Assembly (NCBI GenBank): GCA_012729395.1
Contig: JAAYDF010000311.1
Location: 1-32,661, forward strand
Length of the DNA: 32,661 nt
Origin: Phycisphaerae bacterium
Lineage (GTDB): Bacteria; Planctomycetota; Phycisphaerae; UBA1845; PWPN01
Reading direction: 5' to 3'
Positions 980 through 30,947 of the stretch are shown here, piece by piece. Position 1 is the stretch's first letter; each line of letters begins with the position of its first letter. The position numbers and the translations under genes are program-made. The notes under the pieces were generated by a model. The model was not told the DNA's origin. It saw only the letters and a list, made by a program, of their open reading frames with translations, and made no database searches.

Positions 980-3900
980 TCATGGACATCCGCCCGAGAT
1001 GCTGTTGTTCAGGTTATTCCTGACCAGGACCAAGTCAAAGATATTGATTGCCCCGTCCGTGTTCGGGTCGTTGCGAAAGTTGCCCGCAGTCACGGGCTGG
1101 TTCAACTGATTGCGGATCGCGACCAGGTCGAAGATGTTGACTCTGTCGTCGCCGTTCGCGTCGCCGAGCAGGACGCCGAAGCACAGGGTGTCGGTCACAA
1201 GGTTGCTCTCATCCCCCTGCTGGCAGATGCCGGGAAACGCGATGCCCAGCATGGCGGCATTCGCGACCGACCGGATTCGTACCAGTAGTTCGTTGTCTCT
1301 GGCGGAAAGGCTTGTCACCAGGCCACTCGACAAGGCCACGTCGCCGACGTCGAGTCCGCCTACGCCCTGGATGTCCTGGTCGAAGGTCACCAGGATATCC
1401 GTGGGCCCGCCTGAGCGGTTTTCGACATTGTCCTGGAGGGATACATCGATCGGAAACTCGCCGGCCGTTGCGTGGTCCTTGCTCGAAACCGCGGCCTCGA
1501 TGATTGGTGGACTGACACCGCTCACGTAGCCCGTGTCGGGTAAGCTGAAGTCGCTGGCTCGGCTACCGCTGCCGTCTACCGCCGCCTTGACCCAGTAGTA
1601 GTAGGTCACGCCCGGCGCAGCCGAGGTATCGTCGTAGCTGGTGGGGGCCTGCCAGGGGCCCAACGCGGTTGCACTTGGGGAGTGATTGGTAATGTGCCGG
1701 TAAACTTGGTAACGGGCTGCTCCTGCCACGGAGGTCCAGGTGATGTTTACCATGGCGGCGTAGGCTCCGTCGGTAGCGGTCACGCTTTTGGGCGCGGCCA
1801 AGGCTCGCCAGCCGGCATCAACGTTGCTGAAGTCGCTGACATGGCTTCCGCTACTATCGACGGCTGCCTTGACCCAGTAGTAGTAGGTTGCGCCAGCGGT
1901 CACCGCGGCGTCGTTGTACGAGGTACCGGTCTGCCAATTGCCCAGTTCGGTCGCCGTACCAGGGTCGTTGGCAGTGTTGCGGTAGAGCTGATAATGCGTG
2001 GCGCCGGACGAACTGCCCCAGGATACGGCGATATAGGTGGAGGAGGTGCCATCGCTGGCGGAGATGGTGGCCGGCGGTGACAGGGCCCGCCATCCCCAGG
2101 CTGCAATGCCGAAACCGCTGGCCCGGCTGCCACTGCTGTCGATGGCAGCTTTGACCCAGTAGTAGTGCGTCAGGCCGGGCGTGGCCGTCGTGTCGTTGTA
2201 CGCGGTGCCCGTTTGCCAGGTTCCCATAGGCGTGGCGCTGCCGGAGTCGCCCGTAGTACTGCGGTAGACCTGATAGTGGCTGGCGCCGCTTGAGCTGTTC
2301 CAGGTCAGGGCGACGTGGCTGGTGTAGGTGCCTTCGGTTGCGGTGAGTCCGGTCGGCGGCGATAGGGTGCGGTACCCGGAGGTCATGTTGCTGAAGGCGC
2401 TCGCTCGGTAGCCGGCACTGCTCAGGGCCGCCTTCACCCAGTAGTAGTAGGTTACTCCTGGTGTAGCACCGGTGTCGTCATAGCTGCCGGTTGTGATCCA
2501 CCCGCTGATCAGCGACGCGGTGGCGGATTCATTCGTCGTGCTGCGGTAGACCCCGTAATGTGTGGCATAGGGGTTGGTCCCCCAGATGACTCGAAACCAG
2601 CTCGTGCTGCCGAAGCCGGACACACTTGTCGGCGGGGTGAGGCCTCGCCAGCCGCTGTTGTAGCTGCTGAGGTCGCTGGCTCGCGTGCCCGACGAGTCAA
2701 TCGCGGCTTTAACCCAGTAGTAGTAGGTGGTTCCTGGTGTTGCCATGGTATCGTTGTACGTCGTACCAGGCTGCCAGGATCCCAGGGCGATCGCGCTGCC
2801 GGGGTCGCTCGTAGTATGACGGTATACCCGGTAGTGAGTGGCGCCGGTGGCGCTGTTCCACTGGACAGAAACCCAGTTGGTCTCGCTCCCATCACTGGCG
2901 GACAAGCCGGTCGGAGGCGACAGCGTGCGGTACCCGGTGTCTGCGGTACTGAAGGCATCGTTGCCGCAGAGATTCCTGGCCTTGGCCCAGTAGTAGTAGA
3001 AAGTGCCGGGCGATGCGCTGCTGTCATTGTAGGTTGTCGCGGTTTGCCAGCTCCCCAGGGCTGTCGCACTGCCCGTGCTGTTGGTTGTGTTACGGTAGAC
3101 ACGGTAGTCAGATGCTCCTTCGGCACCGTTCCAGGTGACTTGAACATAGCTGGTCGATGTGCCGTCGGTGGCCGAGACTCCGGTTGGAGCGGGTTGGCTG
3201 GGGCAGGTCACGGTGATCGGGGCGGCGTCCCATCCGGACGTCGCGTTGTTGCCTGTGTTGCCGTCGGTGGCGTCGTCGTAGATCACGCCGAGCCAGTAGT
3301 TGCCCGCCGTCGTGTTCGCGGGGATGGTCACCATCCCCATGTTCACCCGCACGGAACTCATCGCCCCGAAGTCCCAGGTATAACTCTGCGTGCTCACGAG
3401 GGTGTCTGACGAAGTGATGGCATCGTCGCTCGACAGATACACGCGCAACGTGCAGTTGATGCTGGAGGGGTTGTTGTTCGTGGGGTTGTAGGCCAGATGG
3501 TTGAGCAGCGTGGTTTGGCTGCCGGCAGCGATCGTGGCCGGCTCGGCGTTGCAGTCGAGAGCCTGCAGGTCGAATGCCGTGCCCCGGCTGGTGGGGATGA
3601 AGTCGTTGTTCAGGTAATCGACCCAGCCCTCCCACATCTTACAGTAGTAGGTGACGGTAGCGCGGTCGCTGGTTGAGGCGACGGCGTGAACGTACCGGCT
3701 GCCTTCGGTCAGGAAATAGGCCCCGCTGCCGCTCATGCCGCCCCAGCCGGCGTTGAAGCACCCGCCGGTGGTATCGAGCTGCAACTGCTGGTCTGGGCAA
3801 GAGTCGAAGTAGCCGGACCAGAGGTACAAATCCCTCCCGGTGTGCAAACCTCCGCCGCAGTTCTCGGCAGGCCAACTGGCGTTGCGGTAGTACCGTGAGG

Positions 3901-4762
3901 TCGTCGTCGCACACTCCTCGCTGTTGTCGGCGTACAAGCCGTACCACCCGGTCAGCCCGCCCACCGCCCGTGTGATCCGAACCGCGCCCACGTCGCCGTC
4001 GGTATTGCCGTCATTAACCCAGGCGGTCGTGGAAGCCAGGCCTCCAGTGGTCGTGTGTCCGTACCCGTAATGTTGGACGGTGGTCGGGGGCGGATTGAAC
4101 TGGCCGCCAACGCCATCCCAGCCGGGGTATGCCCAGACATCTGTGGCCCAGTCATAGGTCTCGATGCCGTTGGGGGCATGAGCATAGATGCAGTGCCCTG
4201 CCGTAAGCAGGGTTTCGGCATCGACCATGCTGGCTGAGCAGGTTGCGAAGTAGACTTGGCTGTTCTGAGCGACGAAGCGCATGACCAGCTTGCAGTTCGT
4301 CCGCCAGGGATGGACGGCGACATCGGAAACAACGACCATGTCGTTGAAGGATTCCATCATCTCTGGAAACCCTTCGCTTCCATCGGCGCCGCTGTAATCC
4401 TGCGTTACCGACGGAATGCCTGATGTGGACTCATCGAGGGGCACCAGATAGGTCTCGCCGGTCTGAGGATCATGGGCAACGACGGTTTGCGGCCCGGTTG
4501 CTGCGCCGCCTTCCTGGATGTCAGGCATGGGCATGGGAGGAATCAAGTCGAAGGGCGGGTGCGCGGGGCCCTTGATATTTTCCTGCTCCGTGTTTTCCTG
4601 CGGGGCGGGCGGTGGTGCGGACTTGTCTTCGATGGCCTGGACCGTTGGGGCCGGTCCAGGGGGTGCTCCTTGTCCCAAAGCAGCGCTGCCGAGCAAGAGG
4701 CTCGGGACCAAGAAGGTCACTACGCGTAAGCGGACCGCAGCAGTGCGTGGTGAGGTCGGCAT
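980..4762 (-). CDS. Secreted trypsin-like serine protease with CARDB-like, six FN3-like and dockerin-like domains
   Basis: 1260 residues. Signal peptide about 1-31 (Arg-rich start, hydrophobic TFLVPSLLLGSAAL), then a Pro/Gln/Glu-rich linker to about 100. Residues about 145-385 are a chymotrypsin-fold (S1/V8-like) protease: LLTAGHC holds His190, DGDVGAVRI holds Asp257, and GMSGSGAYF holds Ser344. Many Cys pairs suggest disulfides. About 398-520 resembles a CARDB-type domain. About 523-1080 contains six FN3-like repeats of about 94 residues, each with a VYR(S/N/H) strand and a YYYWVKAA strand. A dockerin-like pair of EF-hand loops (about 1196-1257: GDANGDDRVNIFDL and NDPNTDGAINIFDL) closes the protein, which ends in Cys-Pro. 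The ATG is preceded by AGGAGG (4774-4779) at good spacing. Likely an extracellular or surface-held endopeptidase; substrate unknown. Confidence 0.9.
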   Translation of the reverse strand: MPTSPRTAAVRLRVVTFLVPSLLLGSAALGQGAPPGPAPTVQAIEDKSAPPPAPQENTEQENIKGPAHPPFDLIPPMPMPDIQEGGAATGPQTVVAHDPQTGETYLVPLDESTSGIPSVTQDYSGADGSEGFPEMMESFNDMVVVSDVAVHPWRTNCKLVMRFVAQNSQVYFATCSASMVDAETLLTAGHCIYAHAPNGIETYDWATDVWAYPGWDGVGGQFNPPPTTVQHYGYGHTTTGGLASTTAWVNDGNTDGDVGAVRITRAVGGLTGWYGLYADNSEECATTTSRYYRNASWPAENCGGGLHTGRDLYLWSGYFDSCPDQQLQLDTTGGCFNAGWGGMSGSGAYFLTEGSRYVHAVASTSDRATVTYYCKMWEGWVDYLNNDFIPTSRGTAFDLQALDCNAEPATIAAGSQTTLLNHLAYNPTNNNPSSINCTLRVYLSSDDAITSSDTLVSTQSYTWDFGAMSSVRVNMGMVTIPANTTAGNYWLGVIYDDATDGNTGNNATSGWDAAPITVTCPSQPAPTGVSATDGTSTSYVQVTWNGAEGASDYRVYRNTTNSTGSATALGSWQTATTYNDSSASPGTFYYYWAKARNLCGNDAFSTADTGYRTLSPPTGLSASDGSETNWVSVQWNSATGATHYRVYRHTTSDPGSAIALGSWQPGTTYNDTMATPGTTYYYWVKAAIDSSGTRASDLSSYNSGWRGLTPPTSVSGFGSTSWFRVIWGTNPYATHYGVYRSTTNESATASLISGWITTGSYDDTGATPGVTYYYWVKAALSSAGYRASAFSNMTSGYRTLSPPTGLTATEGTYTSHVALTWNSSSGASHYQVYRSTTGDSGSATPMGTWQTGTAYNDTTATPGLTHYYWVKAAIDSSGSRASGFGIAAWGWRALSPPATISASDGTSSTYIAVSWGSSSGATHYQLYRNTANDPGTATELGNWQTGTSYNDAAVTAGATYYYWVKAAVDSSGSHVSDFSNVDAGWRALAAPKSVTATDGAYAAMVNITWTSVAGAARYQVYRHITNHSPSATALGPWQAPTSYDDTSAAPGVTYYYWVKAAVDGSGSRASDFSLPDTGYVSGVSPPIIEAAVSSKDHATAGEFPIDVSLQDNVENRSGGPTDILVTFDQDIQGVGGLDVGDVALSSGLVTSLSARDNELLVRIRSVANAAMLGIAFPGICQQGDESNLVTDTLCFGVLLGDANGDDRVNIFDLVAIRNQLNQPVTAGNFRNDPNTDGAINIFDLVLVRNNLNNSISGGCP
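1530..3190 (-). repeat. Six tandem FN3-encoding repeats, mostly 282-bp period
   Basis: Within the protease gene the marker CCCAGTAGTAG (antisense of the Tyr-Tyr-Tyr-Trp strand) occurs at 1591, 1873, 2155, 2437, 2713 and 2986. The spacing is therefore exactly 282 bp for the four units nearest the 3' end, and 276 and 273 bp further upstream. The near-constant period and conserved codons indicate expansion by tandem duplication, most recently toward the C-terminus of the protein. Confidence 0.85.
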
Positions 4763-4958
4763 GGCGTGTGAATCCTCCTGTACGAAGTTCGGGTGGCGCT
4801 GTGTGACGGCAGTGGGGAGGTGGTACTGCGCCTGCCGTCAGTGTGATGGTGATCCTGCGATGGGAGACTACGCTTCCAACGAGGAGTCCGGTCTCTCGGT
4901 GCATGGCCATTCAACGTGTTCATGGGCCGATGCGTCCTGGTTGAGTGATGAAATGATC

Positions 4959-5002
4959 CAGCTCGGTAGCCGAGTTGAGCTGGGCTTCCGATAAGGATTA
5001 TA
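4959..5002 (-). promoter_or_regulatory. Candidate -10 box and leader hairpin for the protease gene
   Basis: Read on the minus strand, a perfect TATAAT lies at 5002-4997, in an AT-richer patch of otherwise GC-rich DNA. No good -35 is visible at 17 nt. Just downstream (4959-4982) is a nested inverted repeat: CAGCTC/GAGCTG enclosing CTCGG-TAG-CCGAG. If the -10 is real, the transcript has an untranslated leader of about 230 nt starting with this hairpin. I see nothing else of note in 4763-4958. Confidence 0.35.
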
Positions 5003-5142
5003 CAGCGCCGGGTCGCAAGGCGCCAGGTTATTCTACAACTTTTGTACTGAATTTCGAACGATCGCCGCTTGGTGTGCACCCACGGCGATCATGCCCGACT
5101 CAGAAGCCGCGGACGACGTGCCGCAACCCAATAGGGAGCACT

Positions 5143-5313
5143 GTGACAAAAAAGGCCGTTGTCCGGCAGCAGTGTGCGACCTGTGGTGGTCACTGTGGCC
5201 TGGCAATCGTGTGTGACTGGATCTGCCTTGGCTTACGCTGCTTGCCTGGACTTCAGTCGGAGCGGAAGGCAAGCCTTCGCGGAGGCCGTGGATGCGTGTT
5301 CACGCGGCGTTGA
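5143..5313 (+). other. Doubtful 56-codon ORF with a CxxCxxxC motif
   Basis: A GTG start preceded by AGGGAGC opens a 56-codon frame whose first 25 residues include CATCGGHCGL. The spacing C-x2-C-x3-C resembles the N-terminal iron-sulfur motif of molybdopterin oxidoreductases. After that the frame reads into low-complexity Arg/Gly codons at the edge of the repeat mosaic and stops. It could be a chance ORF, a small metal-binding peptide, or the stub of a larger gene truncated by repeat insertion. Nothing downstream continues the family in any frame I could recognise. Confidence 0.2.
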
Positions 5314-5341
5314 TGCCTCGCCAGAGCGATTCCGACGCATG

Positions 5342-5443
5342 GTAGCGGTCGCTCCTCCGCCAAGGCCTGCGCGCCGTAGCGGTCGCCCCTCCACCAAGGC
5401 CTGTCCGCCGTAGCAGTCGCCCCTTGCGAGCCCGATAGCGCAA
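5342..5443. repeat. 34-bp tandem repeat, three units
   Basis: Units begin at 5342, 5376 and 5410 with GTAGCGGTCGC / GTAGCGGTCGC / GTAGCAGTCGC. The first two units differ at only a few positions; the third keeps the first half and then diverges into the GAGCCCG...GCGAGCGAC family. Confidence 0.75.
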
Positions 5444-5553
5444 GCGACGGCCACCTCCACGAGCCCGGAGCGCGAGCGACGGCTACCCCTACGAGCCCGG
5501 AGCGCGAGCGACGGGGGCAGGGGAGCGCCAGCGACAGGATCAACCCCCAGGGA

Positions 5554-5634
5554 ACCGTTTCTGCCCGGCGAGCGATGAAGGGATGTGCGGTATGGTCACG
5601 CCTCCCACCCCGCGCTGGCGCTTGGGGCTCGTAG
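5554..5634. repeat. 81-bp direct repeat, copy 1
   Basis: Matches 5707-5787 at 78 of 81 positions (three transitions). It begins ACCGTTTCTGCCCGG and ends GGGGCTCGTAG. Copy 2 runs directly into the 22-bp array, while copy 1 runs into one degenerate 22-bp-like unit, suggesting that the block and the array duplicated together. Confidence 0.85.
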
Positions 5635-5706
5635 CTTGCGCCTGGAACTCGTAGACGACACGGAAATGCGAGACTGCCCAGCATGATAGTCCCGCATTTC
5701 ACCAGG

Positions 5707-5787
5707 ACCGTTTCTGCCCGGCGAGCGATGAAGGGATACGCGGCATGGTCACGCCTCCCACCCCGCGCTGGCGCTTGGGGCTCGTAG
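5707..5787. repeat. 81-bp direct repeat, copy 2
   Basis: Partner of 5554-5634; the copies start 153 bp apart. Its last bases form the first unit of the 22-bp array. Confidence 0.85.
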
Positions 5788-5898
5788 GCTGCGCGCCTGG
5801 GGCTCGTAGCTTGCGCGCCTGGGGCTCGTAGTCTGCGCGCCTGGGGCTCGTGACTTGCGTGCTTGGGGCTCGTGGCTTGCGCGCTTGGTGCTCGTGGA
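5768..5898. repeat. 22-bp tandem repeat, six units
   Basis: The core CTCGT recurs at 5781, 5803, 5825, 5847, 5869 and 5891, an exact 22-bp period. The unit is close to GCGCGCCTGGGGCTCGTAGCTT. Units are adjacent without spacers, so this is not a CRISPR. Confidence 0.85.
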
Positions 5899-5916
5899 CG
5901 ACGCAGCAAGACGGAC

Positions 5917-6018
5917 TACCGTGACGCACGGGTGGTCAATCGGTCCCGCCTACCATGACGCACGGGCAGTCAACCGGTCCCGCCTACCATGACGCGCGGG
6001 CGGTCCACCGATCCCGTG
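5917..6018. repeat. 34-bp tandem repeat, three units (second family)
   Basis: Units begin at 5917, 5951 and 5985 with TACC(G/A)TGACGC(A/G)CGGG and end in GGTCCCGCC or close variants. The period equals that of the array at 5342-5443 but the sequence is unrelated. Confidence 0.85.
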
Positions 6019-6039
6019 GCTGGAGTCGGCGCTTCTGGT

Positions 6040-6060
6040 AGAACCGGTTCTTTTAACCGG
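6040..6060 (-). other. Palindrome and stem-loop at the tadC stop
   Basis: CCGGTT (6044-6049) and AACCGG (6055-6060) pair around CTTTT; on the minus strand the tadC stop codon (6053-6055) lies at the edge of this loop. The overlapping AGAACCGGTTCT (6040-6051) is a perfect 12-bp palindrome. No U-run follows on the transcript. This is the end of the Tad locus, so it may help to terminate or protect the message. Confidence 0.45.
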
Positions 6061-7006
6061 CGCTGAGGGCACCGCCGCTGCCGAGGGTCTTGATCAACTG
6101 GAGGGCGGCCGGTCCGACGAGCACCACGAAGATCGACGGGAAGATGAAGAGGATCAGCGGCAGCATGAGCTTGACCGTGGTCTTCTGGGCTCGTTCCTCG
6201 GCCTTGAGACGGCGCTTGACCCTCAGGGTGTCGGACTGGGTGCGAAGGGCCTTGGCGACGCTGGTGCCGAAGCGTTCGGCCTGGGTGATGACCGCGACCA
6301 TCGCTCGCATCTCGGCGACGCCGCTGCGTTTGGCCATGTGTTCGAGCGATTCGCTACGCGGCACACCCATTTGCGTTTCGAGCGTGGCGATCTGCATTTC
6401 CTCGCTCAGCTCGGGATGGACGTTACTCATCTCGTCGCTGACTCGTTGGAGTCCCGCGTCGAGGGCCAGGCCTGACTCGACGGACACAACGAGGAGGTCG
6501 AGCGAGTCGGGCAGGCCGTTGCGGATCTTCTCGGACCGCTGGCTGCGGGCGATCCAGAGCCAGACGTTAGGCATGAGGAAACCGAGCCCGCCGGCCGTGG
6601 CGACCATACCGAACAACTGCTTGGCTTCGTATCCTCCGCCCCATGCGACGATGAGTGTGAGGACGGTCAGCACGCCGCCGACGATGGTCTTGCTGGCCAG
6701 GAAGTAGCGGGTCGCGGATTCGTGTCGGTAGCCGGCCTGGGCGAGTTTCTCGCGGAGCGTGGACATTTCTTCGTCGCTGCGGGGCATGACCGGCTTCATC
6801 GCATAGGGTGCGACCTTCTCCATGACGTGGCGGGCGGTGGAGGTTTTTTTGGCCTCCTGGGCCGCGCGTTCGCCCGCGAGCGGCGTCCGGCCGGACATTC
6901 GTCGCAGCACCTTGTCCTGCTCCTCTCGCCGGTCGGGGAGGAAGCTGTAGATGATCATCGCGGCGCTGATCACGACGAGAACGACTAAGATCACGAGTTG
7001 TGTCAT
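6053..7006 (-). CDS. tadC: Tad pilus inner-membrane platform protein TadC
   Basis: 317 residues, usual size for the family. An N-terminal membrane segment (about 4-22) is followed by a cytoplasmic region, two central hydrophobic segments (about 105-155), the GspF/T2SSF domain (about 165-300) with GLPDSLDLLVVSVESGLALD, and a C-terminal hydrophobic segment (about 277-303). The GLPDSLDLL...G.sL..AL pattern is typical of TadC. Together with TadB it forms the membrane platform that the CpaF ATPase drives to assemble Flp pilin. Only 3 nt separate it from the tadB stop, and its ribosome binding site (AAGGTG) lies in the last tadB codons, which implies translational coupling. It is the last gene of the locus. 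Confidence 0.93.
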   Translation of the reverse strand: MTQLVILVVLVVISAAMIIYSFLPDRREEQDKVLRRMSGRTPLAGERAAQEAKKTSTARHVMEKVAPYAMKPVMPRSDEEMSTLREKLAQAGYRHESATRYFLASKTIVGGVLTVLTLIVAWGGGYEAKQLFGMVATAGGLGFLMPNVWLWIARSQRSEKIRNGLPDSLDLLVVSVESGLALDAGLQRVSDEMSNVHPELSEEMQIATLETQMGVPRSESLEHMAKRSGVAEMRAMVAVITQAERFGTSVAKALRTQSDTLRVKRRLKAEERAQKTTVKLMLPLILFIFPSIFVVLVGPAALQLIKTLGSGGALSAG

Positions 7007-24848: not shown

Positions 24849-25006
24849 GGCATGGTCAGGTTGGCTTGCGCGCGGCGTCTGCCTTTCGCGAAGAGATGTA
24901 CGGGATGCTCAGTTCAAGGCGATAGCGTCCCGTGGGCCAATGGTCGCGTTGCGGGTTGGGATGCTCAGGCTGCAAGAGGCGTCGATTCGGAGTGAGGATC
25001 AACACA

Positions 25007-27853
25007 ATGGTGCGACAGAAGCAGGGCCTCATGGCCATCATCGCGTTGGTAGGACTGTGCGGGGCAGGCCATGCCGACGCGCAAGTGACGGTCAGTGCGT
25101 TCGGCAAAATGACGATCACCGCGGATCAGAATGCGGAGTCCGGCAACGGTGTCTTCTCCGAGCTTGACGTCTTGCCGATTCTGCGTGAGGAAGAAGGCGG
25201 CGAACTGGCCGAGGGTACGGAGATCGTGATCACGGCACCCGAGGGTTTCGAGTTTGATACCGGCATGGATGTCGGCGCCCAGCCCTGGAACGGCAGCGAT
25301 ATCGATTTGGGAGGCGGGGCCGGCGTGGCGCTTCTTGCGACCCCGACCGCTGAGACCATTACGTTCACGGTGGTTGGCGAGAGCACGGTGCCAGGCGGGA
25401 AGATTCGGTTTTGGTTCATTACCCTTCGCCCTCTGAACTGTGCCGAAGCGGCAGTTGACGGCGTCACCATCACGGTGACAGCGGGCGACGCGCTGGAGGA
25501 CGAGGATTTCGTCGATGTCAAGGTGGTTCCCGGAGAGCCGGCCACGTTGACTTTGGGGGCGGTGGGGGATCAGGTCGCCGGCTCGCCCTTCTCGGTCCCG
25601 ATCACTGTTCGTGATAGTTGCGAACTTGAGGTGCCCGACGCTTACGTCACCCTCTCCACGGATACCGGGGAGGTTGAGCCCACCGGCACGGTGACGGGCA
25701 AGATGCCCGCGGTGGATGGCGTGCGTTACCAGAAGGCCGAGACCGGCGTCAAGCTGCTGGCTGAGGTGGACGGCATTCAGGAGACGACTGTTGCGTTTGA
25801 CGTGGTGCCGAACAATCCCGCGCGGCTGGCTATTGATGCGGTGGAGGGTCCGGGCCCGGCGGATGAAGTGTTTGTGAATGCTCCGTTCGCGGTGACCGTC
25901 AGCGTGCGCGATCTGTACTACAACGTCACTGAGGTCACGGCTGATACGATGGTCAGCATTCGCCTGCCGGGTGTTGTGCCGGGCACCTTGAGTGGTACCA
26001 CGGTCGGCGTGATCGACGCGGGGACGAGCACCAAGGTCATCGACGGCGTCTTGTACGACTACATCATCGACGGTCTGGTGTTGCTGGCTCATCATAGTCT
26101 GCTTTCTCAGGGTGCCTCGGACCCCTTTGACGTGCTGCAGGCGGGCGAGGCGGTTGACCTGGGCTTCGCCGCTATTGGAACCAAGGTCAAAGATCTGCCG
26201 TTCAACGTGACCGTGAACTTCTTGGATGACCTGGGTTTGCCGACCACGGTTTCGGCGGCTACGGAAGTGACGCTGAGCCTGGATACGGGCACGGGCGATC
26301 TGGCTGGTACGTTGACGATGACGGCGGCTGCGGGGAGCGGCAGCGTGGTGTTCAGTGGATTGACGTACAACAAGGTCGAGAACGGTGTGAAGGTCAAAGC
26401 GACCGCCACCGGTCTGACGCAGGCCGTCTCCGACGCTTTCAATGTTCAGGCTCAGTCCGTGGCCCCGACCAAGCTGGAGATTGCCGCGATTTCCGATCAG
26501 GTCGTCGCTGAGGCGTTTGCCGTCACGGTGACTGCGACGGACGACGACGGGAATCCCATCGCGGTGGATGCCAACCAGACGGTTACTCTGACCCGCCATG
26601 TGGGCACGGGCACACTGGGGGGCACTCTGACCGGCACGATGCCGGCCGGCGAGAGCAGCGTGACCATCGAAGGCGTGACCTACAGCAAAGCAGAGGCCGG
26701 GGTGACACTCCGGGCGGCGGCGGCTCCCGCCGGGTTGACCGGCACGTCCAACGCCTTTGTGGTCGCTGATCCGCCCGTGCCGCCGACACCGACCAAGCTG
26801 GTGATCGCCGCAATTGGCGAGCAGCAGGCCGGCGAACCGTTCTCGGTGACCGTCACGGCGACGGATGACGAGGGAACCCCGATCGCGGTCGATGCCAATC
26901 AGACTGTCACGCTGACTCGCCAGGTTGGCACAGGCACGCTGGGCGGCACGTTGACAGGGAGTATGCCTGCCGGCGAGAGCAGCGTGACCATCGAGGGCGT
27001 GACTTACAGCAAGGGCGAAGAGGGCGTCAAAATCCGTGCCGCGGCAGCCCCAGCGGGCCTGACCGGTCTATCCGATGCCTTTGTCGTGATTGCTCAACCT
27101 ACACCGCCGACGCCGACCAAGCTGGTGATCGATCCCATCGCGGAGCAGGTGACGGGCGAGCCTTTCTCGGTCACTGTGACCGCCACGGACAATGACGGAA
27201 CCCCGGTCGCGGTCGGCGCGAGTCAGACGGTCATTCTGGAGCGTATCGCCGGCACAGGTGTTCTCGGGGGTACGCTCACCGGCACCATGACGGCGGGGAC
27301 GAGCAGTGTCACCATCGACGGGGTTACATACAGCAAGGGCGAGACGGGCGCGACCATCCGTGCCACCGCGACTCCGGCGGGTTTGACCGGCACGTCCGAC
27401 GCGTTTGAGGTGGTCGATCCACCAGCTCCCCCGGCACCGTCGAGACTGGTCGTCAGTGCGATCGCGGAGCAGGTGGTGGGTGAGTTGTTCGTGGTCACCG
27501 TGACCGCCACCGATGACGATGGCGAGCCGGCCGTCTTCAGCGTTGCTCAGACGATCAATCTGACTTGTGACATCGGTACGGGCTCTCTGGGGGGTATCGT
27601 TTTCGCCTTGCTGCCGGCCGGCCAATCCCAGGTCACATTCAACAACCTGACCTACGACAAGGCGGAGGCAGCCGTGAGAATTCGGGTCGTCGCGGCTCCC
27701 TCGGGTCTGGCTGGGCTTTCCAACGTCTTCACCGTGACGGCGGCACCTACACCTCCGCCCGTGTGCTTTGCGACAAGTCCGATGATGTTGGCCGCGACGG
27801 TGATCGGCCTGCTGGGCTTGAAGCTGATGGGTCGCCGACGCCGGAACGCATGA
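25007..27853 (+). CDS. Surface protein of Ig-like repeats with a Cys/hydrophobic/Arg C-terminal tail
   Basis: 948 residues from the ATG at 25007 (GTGAGGA upstream); the frame is open 25 codons further upstream but the signal peptide begins here (about 1-25, with LMAIIALVGLCGAGHADAQ). An N-terminal beta domain (about 26-180) is followed by seven Ig-like (bacterial invasin-type) repeats of about 105 residues, each opening with a TKL-x-I-x-AI-x-(D/E)Q-like strand, then FSVTVTATD, and ending GVTYSK...GLTG.S.AF.V. The last four have an exact 108-residue period. The tail reads PPPVCFATSP, then a hydrophobic helix, then GRRRRNA, like MYXO-CTERM or PEP-CTERM sorting signals. Likely a cell-surface stalk or adhesin; no catalytic motif. 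Confidence 0.85.
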   Translation: MVRQKQGLMAIIALVGLCGAGHADAQVTVSAFGKMTITADQNAESGNGVFSELDVLPILREEEGGELAEGTEIVITAPEGFEFDTGMDVGAQPWNGSDIDLGGGAGVALLATPTAETITFTVVGESTVPGGKIRFWFITLRPLNCAEAAVDGVTITVTAGDALEDEDFVDVKVVPGEPATLTLGAVGDQVAGSPFSVPITVRDSCELEVPDAYVTLSTDTGEVEPTGTVTGKMPAVDGVRYQKAETGVKLLAEVDGIQETTVAFDVVPNNPARLAIDAVEGPGPADEVFVNAPFAVTVSVRDLYYNVTEVTADTMVSIRLPGVVPGTLSGTTVGVIDAGTSTKVIDGVLYDYIIDGLVLLAHHSLLSQGASDPFDVLQAGEAVDLGFAAIGTKVKDLPFNVTVNFLDDLGLPTTVSAATEVTLSLDTGTGDLAGTLTMTAAAGSGSVVFSGLTYNKVENGVKVKATATGLTQAVSDAFNVQAQSVAPTKLEIAAISDQVVAEAFAVTVTATDDDGNPIAVDANQTVTLTRHVGTGTLGGTLTGTMPAGESSVTIEGVTYSKAEAGVTLRAAAAPAGLTGTSNAFVVADPPVPPTPTKLVIAAIGEQQAGEPFSVTVTATDDEGTPIAVDANQTVTLTRQVGTGTLGGTLTGSMPAGESSVTIEGVTYSKGEEGVKIRAAAAPAGLTGLSDAFVVIAQPTPPTPTKLVIDPIAEQVTGEPFSVTVTATDNDGTPVAVGASQTVILERIAGTGVLGGTLTGTMTAGTSSVTIDGVTYSKGETGATIRATATPAGLTGTSDAFEVVDPPAPPAPSRLVVSAIAEQVVGELFVVTVTATDDDGEPAVFSVAQTINLTCDIGTGSLGGIVFALLPAGQSQVTFNNLTYDKAEAAVRIRVVAAPSGLAGLSNVFTVTAAPTPPPVCFATSPMMLAATVIGLLGLKLMGRRRRNA
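26465..27760 (+). repeat. Four in-frame 324-bp tandem repeats
   Basis: The unit start (CCGACCAAGCTGG or close) lies at 26465, 26789, 27113 and 27437, an exact 324-bp period. The first three units are closely similar at the DNA level (for example GAGAGCAGCGTGACCATCGA shared by the first two); the fourth has diverged most. Confidence 0.9.
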
Positions 27854-28134: not shown

Positions 28135-30669
28135 ATGAACGATATCGGGCGAACTGCATGGTCCGGGTTTGTGCGGCTGTGGCTGATCGGTCTGGCTGTG
28201 GTCTCGGTCGGCCGGGCCCAGGAGAGTCCGCATATCTACGGCATCCACGACCACGACACTGGCCAGCAGGGGTACCTCGACCGCTTGAATGCCCAGGGCG
28301 TGACCGGGTGGGTGACGGCCACGCTGGGCATCGGGCACGATCCGAACGACCACGGCGGCGGCGACTTTCGCTCGATCTCCAACCAGGCCCACACGGTTAT
28401 CGCCCGTCTGAACAATGGCTACGGCAGTACCGGCACGATTCCGGTTCCCGCTCAGTACGCCGACTTTGCCCAGCGCTGCGCCAACTACGTGGCCGCCAGC
28501 CAGGGCTGTGATATTTGGTTGATCGGCAACGAGACCAACCTGGCCAGCGAGTGGCCCGCGGTCAACGGTTACCGAAGCTATATCTCCCCGCAGAGTTACG
28601 CGGAGTGCTTCCGCCTGTGCTACAACGCGATCAAGGCGGTCCGACCGAACGCCAAGGTGCTTTGCCAGGCTCTCGCCCCCTGGGCGGGTCCGTACGGGGC
28701 CGGCGCCGACCACGACGCCATGCCGCTCGGCTGGACCGAGTACATGCACCAGATGCTCACCTCGATCAGCGCCACCGGCGGGCTCGACGGCATCGCCGTG
28801 CATATCAACTCACGCGGGTACACCTACAACGACGTGCACTCGACCGCCCAGGTCAACGGCCAGTACTTCAGCTTCTACGTCTACAAGGACTGGGTCAACC
28901 TGGGCACGCCGGCCCACCTGCGCACGTTGCCCTACTACGCGACGGAATGCAACGGGGGTTGGTACTGGAAGGGCGGGCACTCCGAGTGCGTCAGTTGCGC
29001 CAACCCGTCGTGCTGCTACCAGCCGGGCTGGATGCAGTGGATCCATGAGGAGATCAACGCGTGGAACCAGTCGCGGGCCGCCAGCGGCGAGGGTATCTAC
29101 CGCTGCATCAACATGTACCGCTGGTGCAGTTGGTGCGACGGATGGAACATCGACGGCGCACCACAGAAGGGGCAGTTCCTCGCGGACCTCGACGCGGTGG
29201 CGGCCCAGAAATACCGCTGGGACACGGGCCCGGTGCAGCCCCCGACGGCCGACTTCACCGGGACGCCCACCAGCGGGCAGGCGCCCCTGGCGGTCAGCTT
29301 CACCGATCTGTCGGCCGGCAACATCACCTCGCGGGCGTGGGCGTTCGGCGACGGCGGCACCTCGAACGCGGTTAACCCGACCTGCACCTATCTGACCGCG
29401 GGTACCTACACGGTGAGCCTGACCGTCACCGGCCCCGGCGGCAGCGATACCCGCACACGCACGAGCTACATCCAGGTCTCCGCCCCGGAGCCGGGCAGCA
29501 ACCTCATCACCAACGGCACGTTCGATACCAGCCTGAACGGCTGGACGGTCTGGACGGAGCGCAACGCGGCCGGCGATTTTTCCGCCTTGGTGGTTGACGG
29601 CCAGTTGCGGAGCACGGGCTCCAACTACAACGGCGGCGTCTGGCAGCAGTTCGCCACCGGCGGCCCCGGACGAACCATCGACATCGCCGGCTTCTGGCAG
29701 TCCAGCCCCACCGTCGCCAACTACCAGTGGGCGGAAGTGCGGATCATCAACGGCCCGCGCACGCCGATCAACGGCCAGGACGAGGGCGCTCAAGGCGACA
29801 GCGTGCTCATCTACAAGAACGACACCTGGGCGACGCCCGGCGGATGGAGCGGGACCATGTCCGCCACCGCCCCGGTCGCCAACCTCGGCCGGTTCACCTC
29901 CGCCGCCGATCTCGCGACTATCGTCCTCAAGAGCGGCAACCTGGGCGGCAGTTCCTCGGGCATTCGCTGGGACAACATCGAGGCGCGAGACGCCTCGGCG
30001 GCGATCATTATCGAATCGCGCAGCGGCGGGCAGAACCACGCTTGGTATCGCGAGGAGGGACCCTGGGCGGACATCAGTGCGACCAGCGGCGCGGCCGGCG
30101 TGACGGTGGGTCTCGGCTCGCGATACGGATCGACCGTTCGTTCTGTCGCCGGACTCAAGGCGGCGGTGTTCGAGCCGGTCATCGCCTCGTCCGGACGGTA
30201 CCGGGTCTATGCCACTTGGCCGGCCCATGCGTCGGCTCGCAATCCGATCCTCTACCAGGTGGCCCACGCCGACGGTGTCACCGAGATCGACGTGGACCAG
30301 ACCCAGAACCCGAACACGTGGTTCGATCTGGGCGAGTATCGATTTGCCGCGGGGGGGGCGGCGTCTGTTCGCCTCTCCAACGAGCATATCGACGAGTCCG
30401 GCAGCATGTTTGCCTCGGCGGTCCGTTTCGTGCAGGTCGGCGCGGCGCCCGAGTACAGCCGGGCGGATTTCGACCACGACGGCGACGTCGATCTCGACGA
30501 CTTCGGGCATCTGCAGCGTTGCCTGAGCGGCTCGGGAGTTCGGCAGGATGTTGAGGCCTGCCGCAGCGCCTGGCTCGACGACGACAATGATGTGGACCTT
30601 GCCGACCTCGCGTTTCTTCGCCAATGCCTGTCCGGAGCTGACCTCGACGCCGATGTGTATTGCCCGTGA
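28135..30669 (+). CDS. Secreted putative glycoside hydrolase with PKD, CBM-like, golvesin-like and dockerin-like domains
   Basis: 844 residues; GAGGGG lies 7 nt before the ATG. Signal peptide about 1-28 (WLIGLAVVSVGRAQ). About 32-365 looks like a TIM-barrel hydrolase of clan GH-A type: IYGIHDHD near the start, Glu133 in LIGNETN as likely acid/base and Glu271 in YYATECNGGW as likely nucleophile; several Cys. About 370-450 is a PKD domain (PPTADFTGTPTSGQAPLAV...WAFGDGG...AGTYTVSLTV). About 455-615 is a CBM4/9-like jelly roll (NLITNGTFDTSLNGW). About 620-770 resembles the golvesin C-terminal domain (YRVYATWPAHASARNP). A dockerin-like pair (DFDHDGDVDLDDF and LDDDNDVDLADLAFL) ends the protein, which finishes Cys-Pro. 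The substrate and exact GH family are not identifiable by eye. Confidence 0.85.
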   Translation: MNDIGRTAWSGFVRLWLIGLAVVSVGRAQESPHIYGIHDHDTGQQGYLDRLNAQGVTGWVTATLGIGHDPNDHGGGDFRSISNQAHTVIARLNNGYGSTGTIPVPAQYADFAQRCANYVAASQGCDIWLIGNETNLASEWPAVNGYRSYISPQSYAECFRLCYNAIKAVRPNAKVLCQALAPWAGPYGAGADHDAMPLGWTEYMHQMLTSISATGGLDGIAVHINSRGYTYNDVHSTAQVNGQYFSFYVYKDWVNLGTPAHLRTLPYYATECNGGWYWKGGHSECVSCANPSCCYQPGWMQWIHEEINAWNQSRAASGEGIYRCINMYRWCSWCDGWNIDGAPQKGQFLADLDAVAAQKYRWDTGPVQPPTADFTGTPTSGQAPLAVSFTDLSAGNITSRAWAFGDGGTSNAVNPTCTYLTAGTYTVSLTVTGPGGSDTRTRTSYIQVSAPEPGSNLITNGTFDTSLNGWTVWTERNAAGDFSALVVDGQLRSTGSNYNGGVWQQFATGGPGRTIDIAGFWQSSPTVANYQWAEVRIINGPRTPINGQDEGAQGDSVLIYKNDTWATPGGWSGTMSATAPVANLGRFTSAADLATIVLKSGNLGGSSSGIRWDNIEARDASAAIIIESRSGGQNHAWYREEGPWADISATSGAAGVTVGLGSRYGSTVRSVAGLKAAVFEPVIASSGRYRVYATWPAHASARNPILYQVAHADGVTEIDVDQTQNPNTWFDLGEYRFAAGGAASVRLSNEHIDESGSMFASAVRFVQVGAAPEYSRADFDHDGDVDLDDFGHLQRCLSGSGVRQDVEACRSAWLDDDNDVDLADLAFLRQCLSGADLDADVYCP

Positions 30670-30674
30670 GGCGT

Positions 30675-30768
30675 CCAACAGAGCCGCGCCCGTGGCGCCC
30701 AACAGAGCCGCGCCCGTAAGGAAGCGGTTCTTTGTTCGCGGAAACGCTCCCTCACGGTCGTGGCTCTG
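30675..30768. repeat. Repeat/inverted-repeat element after the hydrolase gene
   Basis: CAACAGAGCCGCGCCCGT occurs twice, 24 bp apart (about 30678 and 30702). The second copy starts a 24-bp arm (30703-30726) that pairs with 30745-30768 with four mismatches and an 18-nt loop. Read forward it encodes NRAAPV repeats, a phrase I recall from spurious planctomycete ORFs. It lies between the convergent hydrolase and pectate lyase genes and may act as a bidirectional terminator or a REP-like element. Nothing else is seen in 30670-30947. Confidence 0.6.
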
Positions 30769-30947
30769 CTTGGCATACTCGAGCCGGTTATCAGAACACT
30801 CATGAACGGCTGGCGGCAAGGATCACAAACACGCCGGTCGCCACGGCTCGGCTGAGCTCGCCGAAGTCAGGGGGCGACCGCTACGACGAGCCGGGAAGCG
30901 TTCTGATGTTGCACGCTGGGCCGCAGGGGGTGCGCGGCGGTGTTCGA

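Follow-up and report, generated by a model that had tools for sequence, protein, structure and literature searches.

The repeat-filled interval at positions 5230-6018 of the window (the whole 32,661-nucleotide stretch of Phycisphaerae DNA that was analyzed) is best explained as a REP island, BIME/REPIN-like in organization, whose units would be mobilized in trans by RAYT-type Y1 proteins; we put the probability of this reading at about 0.85. A sequence-only reading had described a mobile or amplifying intergenic family here, and that description is borne out by hundreds of copies, nearly all of them extragenic, and by empty sites in a related genome. The genome search that it proposed returned many further copies; the REP identity of the repeats and their cognate RAYT-type genes had escaped it. 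REP/RAYT systems in general are already known, and REPs have already been reported in Planctomycetes, according to the portion of PMC3733652 consulted. What appears to be new is an explanation for recurrent peptide phrases, the scale of class 3 Y1 systems, and the empty sites. Among the papers listed by a general search of the literature on planctomycete repetitive sequences, none beyond PMC3733652 concerned these repeats.

Tandem-repeat and repeat searches of the window revealed a genuine mosaic at approximately 5342-6017. Repeated 12-mers occupy 193 positions within 5230-6018, compared with maxima of 52 across 115 further 789-bp stretches taken from the window and of 12 across 500 shuffles. 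The listed repeats cover 549 of the 789 bases, and by the same listing 5230-5341 and 5642-5706 are repeat free; the mosaic that had been proposed is thus real, but the claim that these ~800 bp are almost only repeats overstates its extent. On one side lies a T2SSF/TadC-type gene (6053-7006, minus strand), in agreement with the Tad locus recognized earlier. On the other, a 1260-aa large secreted dockerin protein is encoded (980-4762, minus strand); it had been called a secreted protease, and secretion stands, but Pfam identified no protease domain in it. The features are as follows.

5342-5424, plus strand: 34-bp unit repeated 2.4 times, tandem 5' halves (GTAGCGGTCGC...) of a long-loop GTAG-tagged REP.
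5427-5514, plus strand: 32-bp tandem array of 2.7 copies, class-3-type CGAG REPs.
5492-5631, left REP on the plus strand and right REP on the minus strand: inverted CGAG-REP pair, REPIN-like.
5554-5641, plus strand: 88-bp block, copy 1, the 3' end of which is a CGAG REP.
5608-5631, minus strand: CGAG REP, CGAG-CCCC-AA-GCGC-CA-GCGC-GGGG, whose codons give TSPKRQRG / YEPQAPARG.
5707-5794, plus strand: 88-bp block, copy 2, 94% identical to copy 1 and leading into the 22-bp array.
5761-5784, minus strand: CGAG REP, variant identical to that at 5608-5631.
5771-5897, no strand assigned: 22-bp array of 5.8 copies, truncated CGAG REP (GGGGCTCGTAG half).
5916-6017, no strand assigned: 34-bp tandem array of three copies, 35 bp away from where the TadC-type gene ends.
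30834-30884, minus strand: complete long-loop GTAG REP (GTAG-CGGTCGCC ... GGCGACCG), between two convergent genes.

The mosaic had been counted as four or more repeat families, which is too many, as its content resolves into two dispersed families accompanied by local tandem arrays. One hairpin (family 1) gave rise to the 32-bp array, to the 22-bp array, and to the right end of the 88-bp block; the first 34-bp array corresponds to the 5' half of another hairpin (family 2). Units of the 32-bp array follow the variant CGAG-CCCG-GA-GCGC-GA-GCGA-CGGG, with the best ones at 5460-5482 and 5492-5514. In the inverted pair at 5492-5631, the tags lie outside and a 102-nt spacer, which as a whole has no dispersed copy in the genome, separates the 19-bp cores. 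The two copies of the 88-bp block start 153 bp apart; a joint duplication had been described as an 81-bp block leading into a 22-bp array, and it holds with a block of 88 bp, the second copy of which runs into the array. The array at 5342-5424 lacks a 3' arm and is therefore degenerate. By eye, the last 34-bp array (5916-6017) resembles a GTAG hairpin, an assignment that was dropped and the array not classed as a REP because it has no second clear copy in the genome (best other match, E = 0.27).

Family 1 is a bulged hairpin with the consensus 5'-CGAG-CCC(C/G)-NN-GCGC-NN-GCGN-(G/C)GGG, in which a CGAG foot precedes a stem of CCC(C/G) and (G/C)GGG that encloses a two-base bulge and an inner GCGC-NN-GCG. 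BLAST with the 88-bp block returned 69 genomic matches (E <= 0.001), most of those outside the window spanning only its right half. A shared-core pattern matched the genome 55 times and its reversed control never, while a shorter pattern gave 234 exact matches versus 0 in the control and 293 versus 4 when up to one mismatch was allowed. Orientations are approximately balanced (114 versus 120), and neighboring units often stand in direct tandem (62 ++ and 66 -- pairs), with single units present as well as tandem and inverted ones. Among 234 units from the fetched regions, the pair formed by positions 7 and 20 is C-G in 140, G-C in 71, and otherwise composed in 23; this pairing played no part in the selection of units. 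The CGAG foot in this genome, like the GTAG foot of family 2, was part of the search pattern and is not independent evidence for the foot. As expected of a REP, family 1 is a palindromic hairpin with compensatory change that is high copy, dispersed, and extragenic.

Family 2, in its full form GTAG-CGGTCGCC-loop-GGCGACCGG, has 122 genomic copies compared with 0 in the control. The array at 5342-5424, which consists of 5' halves of this hairpin only, gave 47 genomic BLAST matches at E <= 1, many of them weak. The complete copy at 30834-30884 shares the window with these degenerate relatives. GTAG-tagged REPs accompany class 2 RAYTs in the E. coli, Pseudomonas, and Stenotrophomonas systems covered by the part of PMC3733652 consulted. 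Family 2 shares with the systems described there a GTAG foot, an 8-bp stem, a short loop, an intergenic location, a high copy number, and REPs that flank a RAYT gene on both sides. It differs from them in having several loop-insertion variants and, in the window, an array of 5' halves alone.

The location of both families was assessed in the window and in 60 stretches fetched for the matches they contained, 61 regions in all, with genes called by a home-made codon-usage caller. Only 9 of 237 CGAG units fall inside called genes, compared with 147 expected at random, and none of 54 GTAG units does so, compared with 30.6 expected, which upholds the intergenic character that had been proposed for the repeats. 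These units form 73 clusters; both neighbors were called for 46, of which 25 lie between tandem, 18 between convergent, and 3 between divergent genes, while all adjacent called gene pairs in the same regions comprise 84 tandem, 26 convergent, and 14 divergent ones.

REPINs and BIMEs are pairs of REPs in inverted orientation that disperse together with a conserved spacer. Thirty-six inverted family 1 pairs (tags outside, spacer below 130 nt) were grouped by spacer, and the genome contains classes of 51-54 nt and of 90-105 nt. Half of the pairs (18) have 51-54-nt spacers that are up to 98% identical across contigs, indicating that composite elements disperse as units. This arrangement matches REPINs and BIMEs in its inverted REPs, conserved spacer, and joint dispersal, and it is unlike the known ones in being built from class-3-type hairpins and in comprising several spacer classes within one genome. 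A conserved GTGGAGCGTCAGCGACGTAC stretch in the spacer of the 18 short REPINs (L090, L098, L102, L107, L109, L117, and others) resembles the hairpin core of class-3-type REPs from other genomes and is possibly a fossil third REP variant. On C124 and C86, inspection by eye of the sequence between paired repeat clusters revealed no transposase. Also, at 11 places in this assembly (L083, L088, L092, L095, L110, L113, L116, L119, L120, L127, and L129), a contig ends within 150 bp of a REP unit, and so the repeats probably broke the assembly there.

An extragenic position near gene ends would also be expected if the hairpins were RNA elements, kept for transcript stabilization or termination, selection for which, and not a transposase, would have spread them. 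The scarcity of divergent gene pairs around the clusters (3 of 46) fits this idea, and the part of PMC3733652 consulted assigns such roles to REPs in other bacteria. Nevertheless, the repeats contain no intrinsic terminators (a single weak site at 6035-6047 lies outside them and is within shuffle expectation), and a search of 4900-6400 against Rfam returned nothing up to E = 1. Moreover, selection alone explains neither the conserved REPIN spacers at unrelated places nor the hairpins on both sides of transposase genes, which makes this account improbable as the cause of spread. An RNA role may be a secondary function of the hairpins, and the REPs could conceivably benefit the host.

For the REP reading, candidate enzymes come from genes associated with each family. 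The genome has 11 Y1_Tnp matches, and CGAG REPs with at most one mismatch lie within 1.5 kb of just one of them, the locus on contig 199 (C199). There, 14 exact family 1 units occupy both sides of the gene, the nearest being 75 and 79 bp from its ends, so that the gene sits inside a dense REP cluster. Two other Y1_Tnp loci have a single family 1 match each, with 3 mismatches; close CGAG REPs are absent near the other Y1_Tnp genes of the genome (L061-L069) in general. The gene on contig 199 encodes P0001, a class-3-like HUH/Y1 protein of 162 aa that scores 27.8 bits against Y1_Tnp (cut-off, 23) and 30.8 against the NCBI model REP_Tyr_transpos (cut-off, 80). Its motifs are NHVH, WT, and YVVYGQ, and H91 and H93 (HUH) and Y152 are invariant in an alignment with 26 relatives. 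Contig 138 (C138) encodes P0002, a RAYT-like protein of 174 aa whose scores lie just below both cut-offs (21.8 bits for Y1_Tnp [cut-off, 23] and 75.3 for REP_Tyr_transpos [cut-off, 80]); two family 2 hairpins flank its gene on one side and one inverted hairpin does so on the other. A 28-mer motif scan of Y1 loci for family 2 missed C138, the 28-mer having been taken from the degenerate copies in the window; BLAST and direct reading recovered it.

Because each family flanks one HUH/Y1 gene, both are identified as REP elements with RAYT-type partners. Judged from sequence and position, the enzyme of family 1 is most likely P0001 and that of family 2 is most likely the RAYT P0002. Both proteins would cut and move REPs, and their superfamily suggests that they are catalytic; nuclease activity is documented for an E. 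coli protein of the superfamily in the part of PMC6006769 consulted. The nuclease superfamily and the recognition of hairpins are common to Y1/REP systems and to IS200/IS605 insertion sequences. Here, unlike in IS200/IS605, a single close copy of the gene faces hundreds of hairpins; other P0001 relatives within the genome are 32-39% identical.

P0001 resembles the class 3 TnpA-Y1 group, as judged from published motifs. The accessible part of PMC6006769 (2018) describes these 'REPtron-like' systems, mainly from Planctomycetes, Acidobacteria, and Proteobacteria, with the motifs NHVH, W[TA], and YV[VI][AENY]EQ and a CnGA foot on the flanking hairpins. P0001 has NHVH, W[TA], and a Y motif with Q; it departs from the group described there in that its YVVYGQ lacks the E of the published EQ ending. 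The foot in this genome is ACGA(G), compared with the CnGA of that description, and CCGA or CAGA(G) occurs at several other loci.

The same source calls class 3 rare on the basis of a 24-sequence sample, whereas our scan of named genomes returned at least 541 P0001 relatives, of which 80 were kept. In a sample of 294 genomes from the phylum, 35 (G000, the source of the window, included) match P0001 at E <= 1e-10. Among the matches listed by the scan of named genomes, most are from Phycisphaerae and other Planctomycetota, with some from Acidobacteria, Chloroflexi, and others. Class-3-type relatives in MAGs labeled Myxococcota, Abditibacteriaceae, Chloroflexi, Acidobacteria, Dehalococcoidia, and Sumerlaeia (L175, L182, L197, L199, L214, and L222) may reflect either transfer or mis-binning.

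Hairpins recur around these genes. We examined 110 loci (30 from the 294-genome set and 80 from the named scan), of which 106 had enough flank. An inverted repeat of at least 19/22 is common to both flanks at 80 of the 106, versus 15 of 209 cross-locus pairings and 0 of 106 shuffled controls. The family 1 architecture occurs at 67 of 110 loci (49 on both sides) versus 21 of 204 control stretches, and of 67 units near class-3-type genes, chosen on AG only, 56 have the foot NGAG. Excluding 4 odd ones from 46 distinct units with both-side matches left 42 units from 42 loci, selected for three of four outer pairs with the inner pair 13-20 unused. Standard pairs fill 96% of the pair cells, versus 75% in shuffles, none of 500 of which reached that value; the inner pair is GC in 27 units, CG in 13, AU in 1, and something else in 1. 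The hairpins are weak, with a mean folding z of -1.1 versus -0.3 for control stretches.

A covariance model of these 42 units (R1) was run on the 294 genomes; only ~25 candidates were scored per genome, so the counts saturate and are usable only as rich (at least 10 matches) or poor. Hairpin-rich genomes make up 22 of the 35 with a class-3-type gene versus 11 of the 259 without one (p = 2e-16). When the 13 genomes that supplied units to the model are set aside, 9 of 22 gene-bearing genomes are rich (p = 2e-6), a comparison in which the named source MAGs may overlap the 294. Exceptions run both ways, with 13 of 35 gene-bearing genomes not hairpin rich and 11 gene-less genomes rich. Hairpin-rich genomes in which no class-3-type gene was detected include G209, G231, G256, G261, G272, and G277; the gene was lost or missed there, or another hairpin family is present.

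Inverted CGAG hairpins flank the P0001 relative (55% identical) of genome G095, which has 39 pattern matches, compared with 2, 2, and 6 in its gene-less congeners G002, G034, and G172. Two of nine fetched G095 sites were compared with these congeners, G172 being uninformative at both. At the first, two genes of G095 have an inverted pair of ~85 bp between them; BLAST places the flanks 2 bases apart in G002 and G034, and alignment shows the whole pair to be absent. At the second, the pair is absent from G034, and G002 carries an unrelated longer sequence. These sites record that a relative, as distinct from the species of the window, gained or lost an equivalent element.

Inverted pairs of 89-143 bp with related ends on many contigs, one class of them with conserved spacers, could instead be MITEs, that is, short elements with terminal inverted repeats that a DDE transposase mobilizes with target duplication. 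This is somewhat less probable still than the RNA account, since single units and direct tandems exist as well, the gene within the cluster is a Y1_Tnp, and other class-3-type genes have, in their flanks, a hairpin version of their own. Also, a target duplication is not evident at the two aligned empty sites, where identity is low.

On the preferred reading, two REP families, short hairpins with a tetranucleotide at the 5' foot, would have inserted repeatedly between genes. A Y1 transposase would recognize foot and hairpin on single-stranded DNA, cut beside them, and move single REPs or inverted pairs (REPINs, about 90-145 bp) to new intergenic sites. The REPs inserted at this site would then have decayed, with ordinary tandem duplication producing the periods of 22, 32, 34, and 153 bp. 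More tentatively, and at somewhat less than even odds taken jointly, class 3 Y1 proteins, instead of being rare intermediates, may form a widespread Planctomycetota system in which enzyme and hairpin codiverge, which seeds many of the intergenic repeats that show up as SPKRQRG/YEPQA 'proteins' in planctomycetes, and which still moves REPINs; its foot might be NGAG with a variable first base, and its outer and inner stems might swap complementary pairs.

Slippage or unequal exchange is likely the cause of the local arrays, and the entire stretch might be a local tandem-repeat accident of that kind with no mobile component. The 22-bp array is unique to the window among the 61 regions, the last 34-bp array has no clear counterpart, and the window alone has two copies of the left part of the 153-bp block (the first 25 bases of the 88-bp block, at its 5' end, are present genome-wide only in the two window copies). 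However, the genome contains hundreds of copies of the underlying hairpins, and slippage accounts for local multiplication and not for dispersal, leaving this account with only a slim chance.

SPKRQRG and YEPQA had been picked out of the minus-strand translation, and both are present, the former twice and the latter four times, all in minus-strand frames. They are chance translations of one hairpin family, since a single family 1 unit yields YEPQAPARG, TSPKRQRG, or LRAPSASAG in different reading frames, and the warning that the repeats are a source of false ORFs was well founded. That the phrases are real peptides of a small repetitive protein family, for which a 218-aa open frame along 5253-5909 (minus strand) might be cited, is very unlikely, as they come from different frames of one hairpin, its units lie in both orientations, and its sequence changes preserve base pairs. 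As a full-text literature term, SPKRQRG returned no paper.

These findings supply a testable origin for peptide phrases that recur in predicted planctomycete proteins; as translations of mobile hairpins, they should not be annotated as genes. They also enlarge a transposase class, so far described from few sequences, to hundreds of loci for which the hairpin is defined; the pairs of occupied and empty sites allow REPIN gain and loss to be tracked. Moreover, the interleaving of two REP/enzyme systems in one island offers a natural case in which to ask whether REP families share insertion sites.

Two further repeats were seen elsewhere in the window. A 24-bp direct duplication (95%) at 30670-30717 directly follows the stop codon of the gene at 28135-30669. 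Finally, a 324-bp tandem repeat of 2.5 copies at 26522-27336 lies inside the open frame 24932-27853 and probably represents duplicated Ig-like domains of a surface protein.
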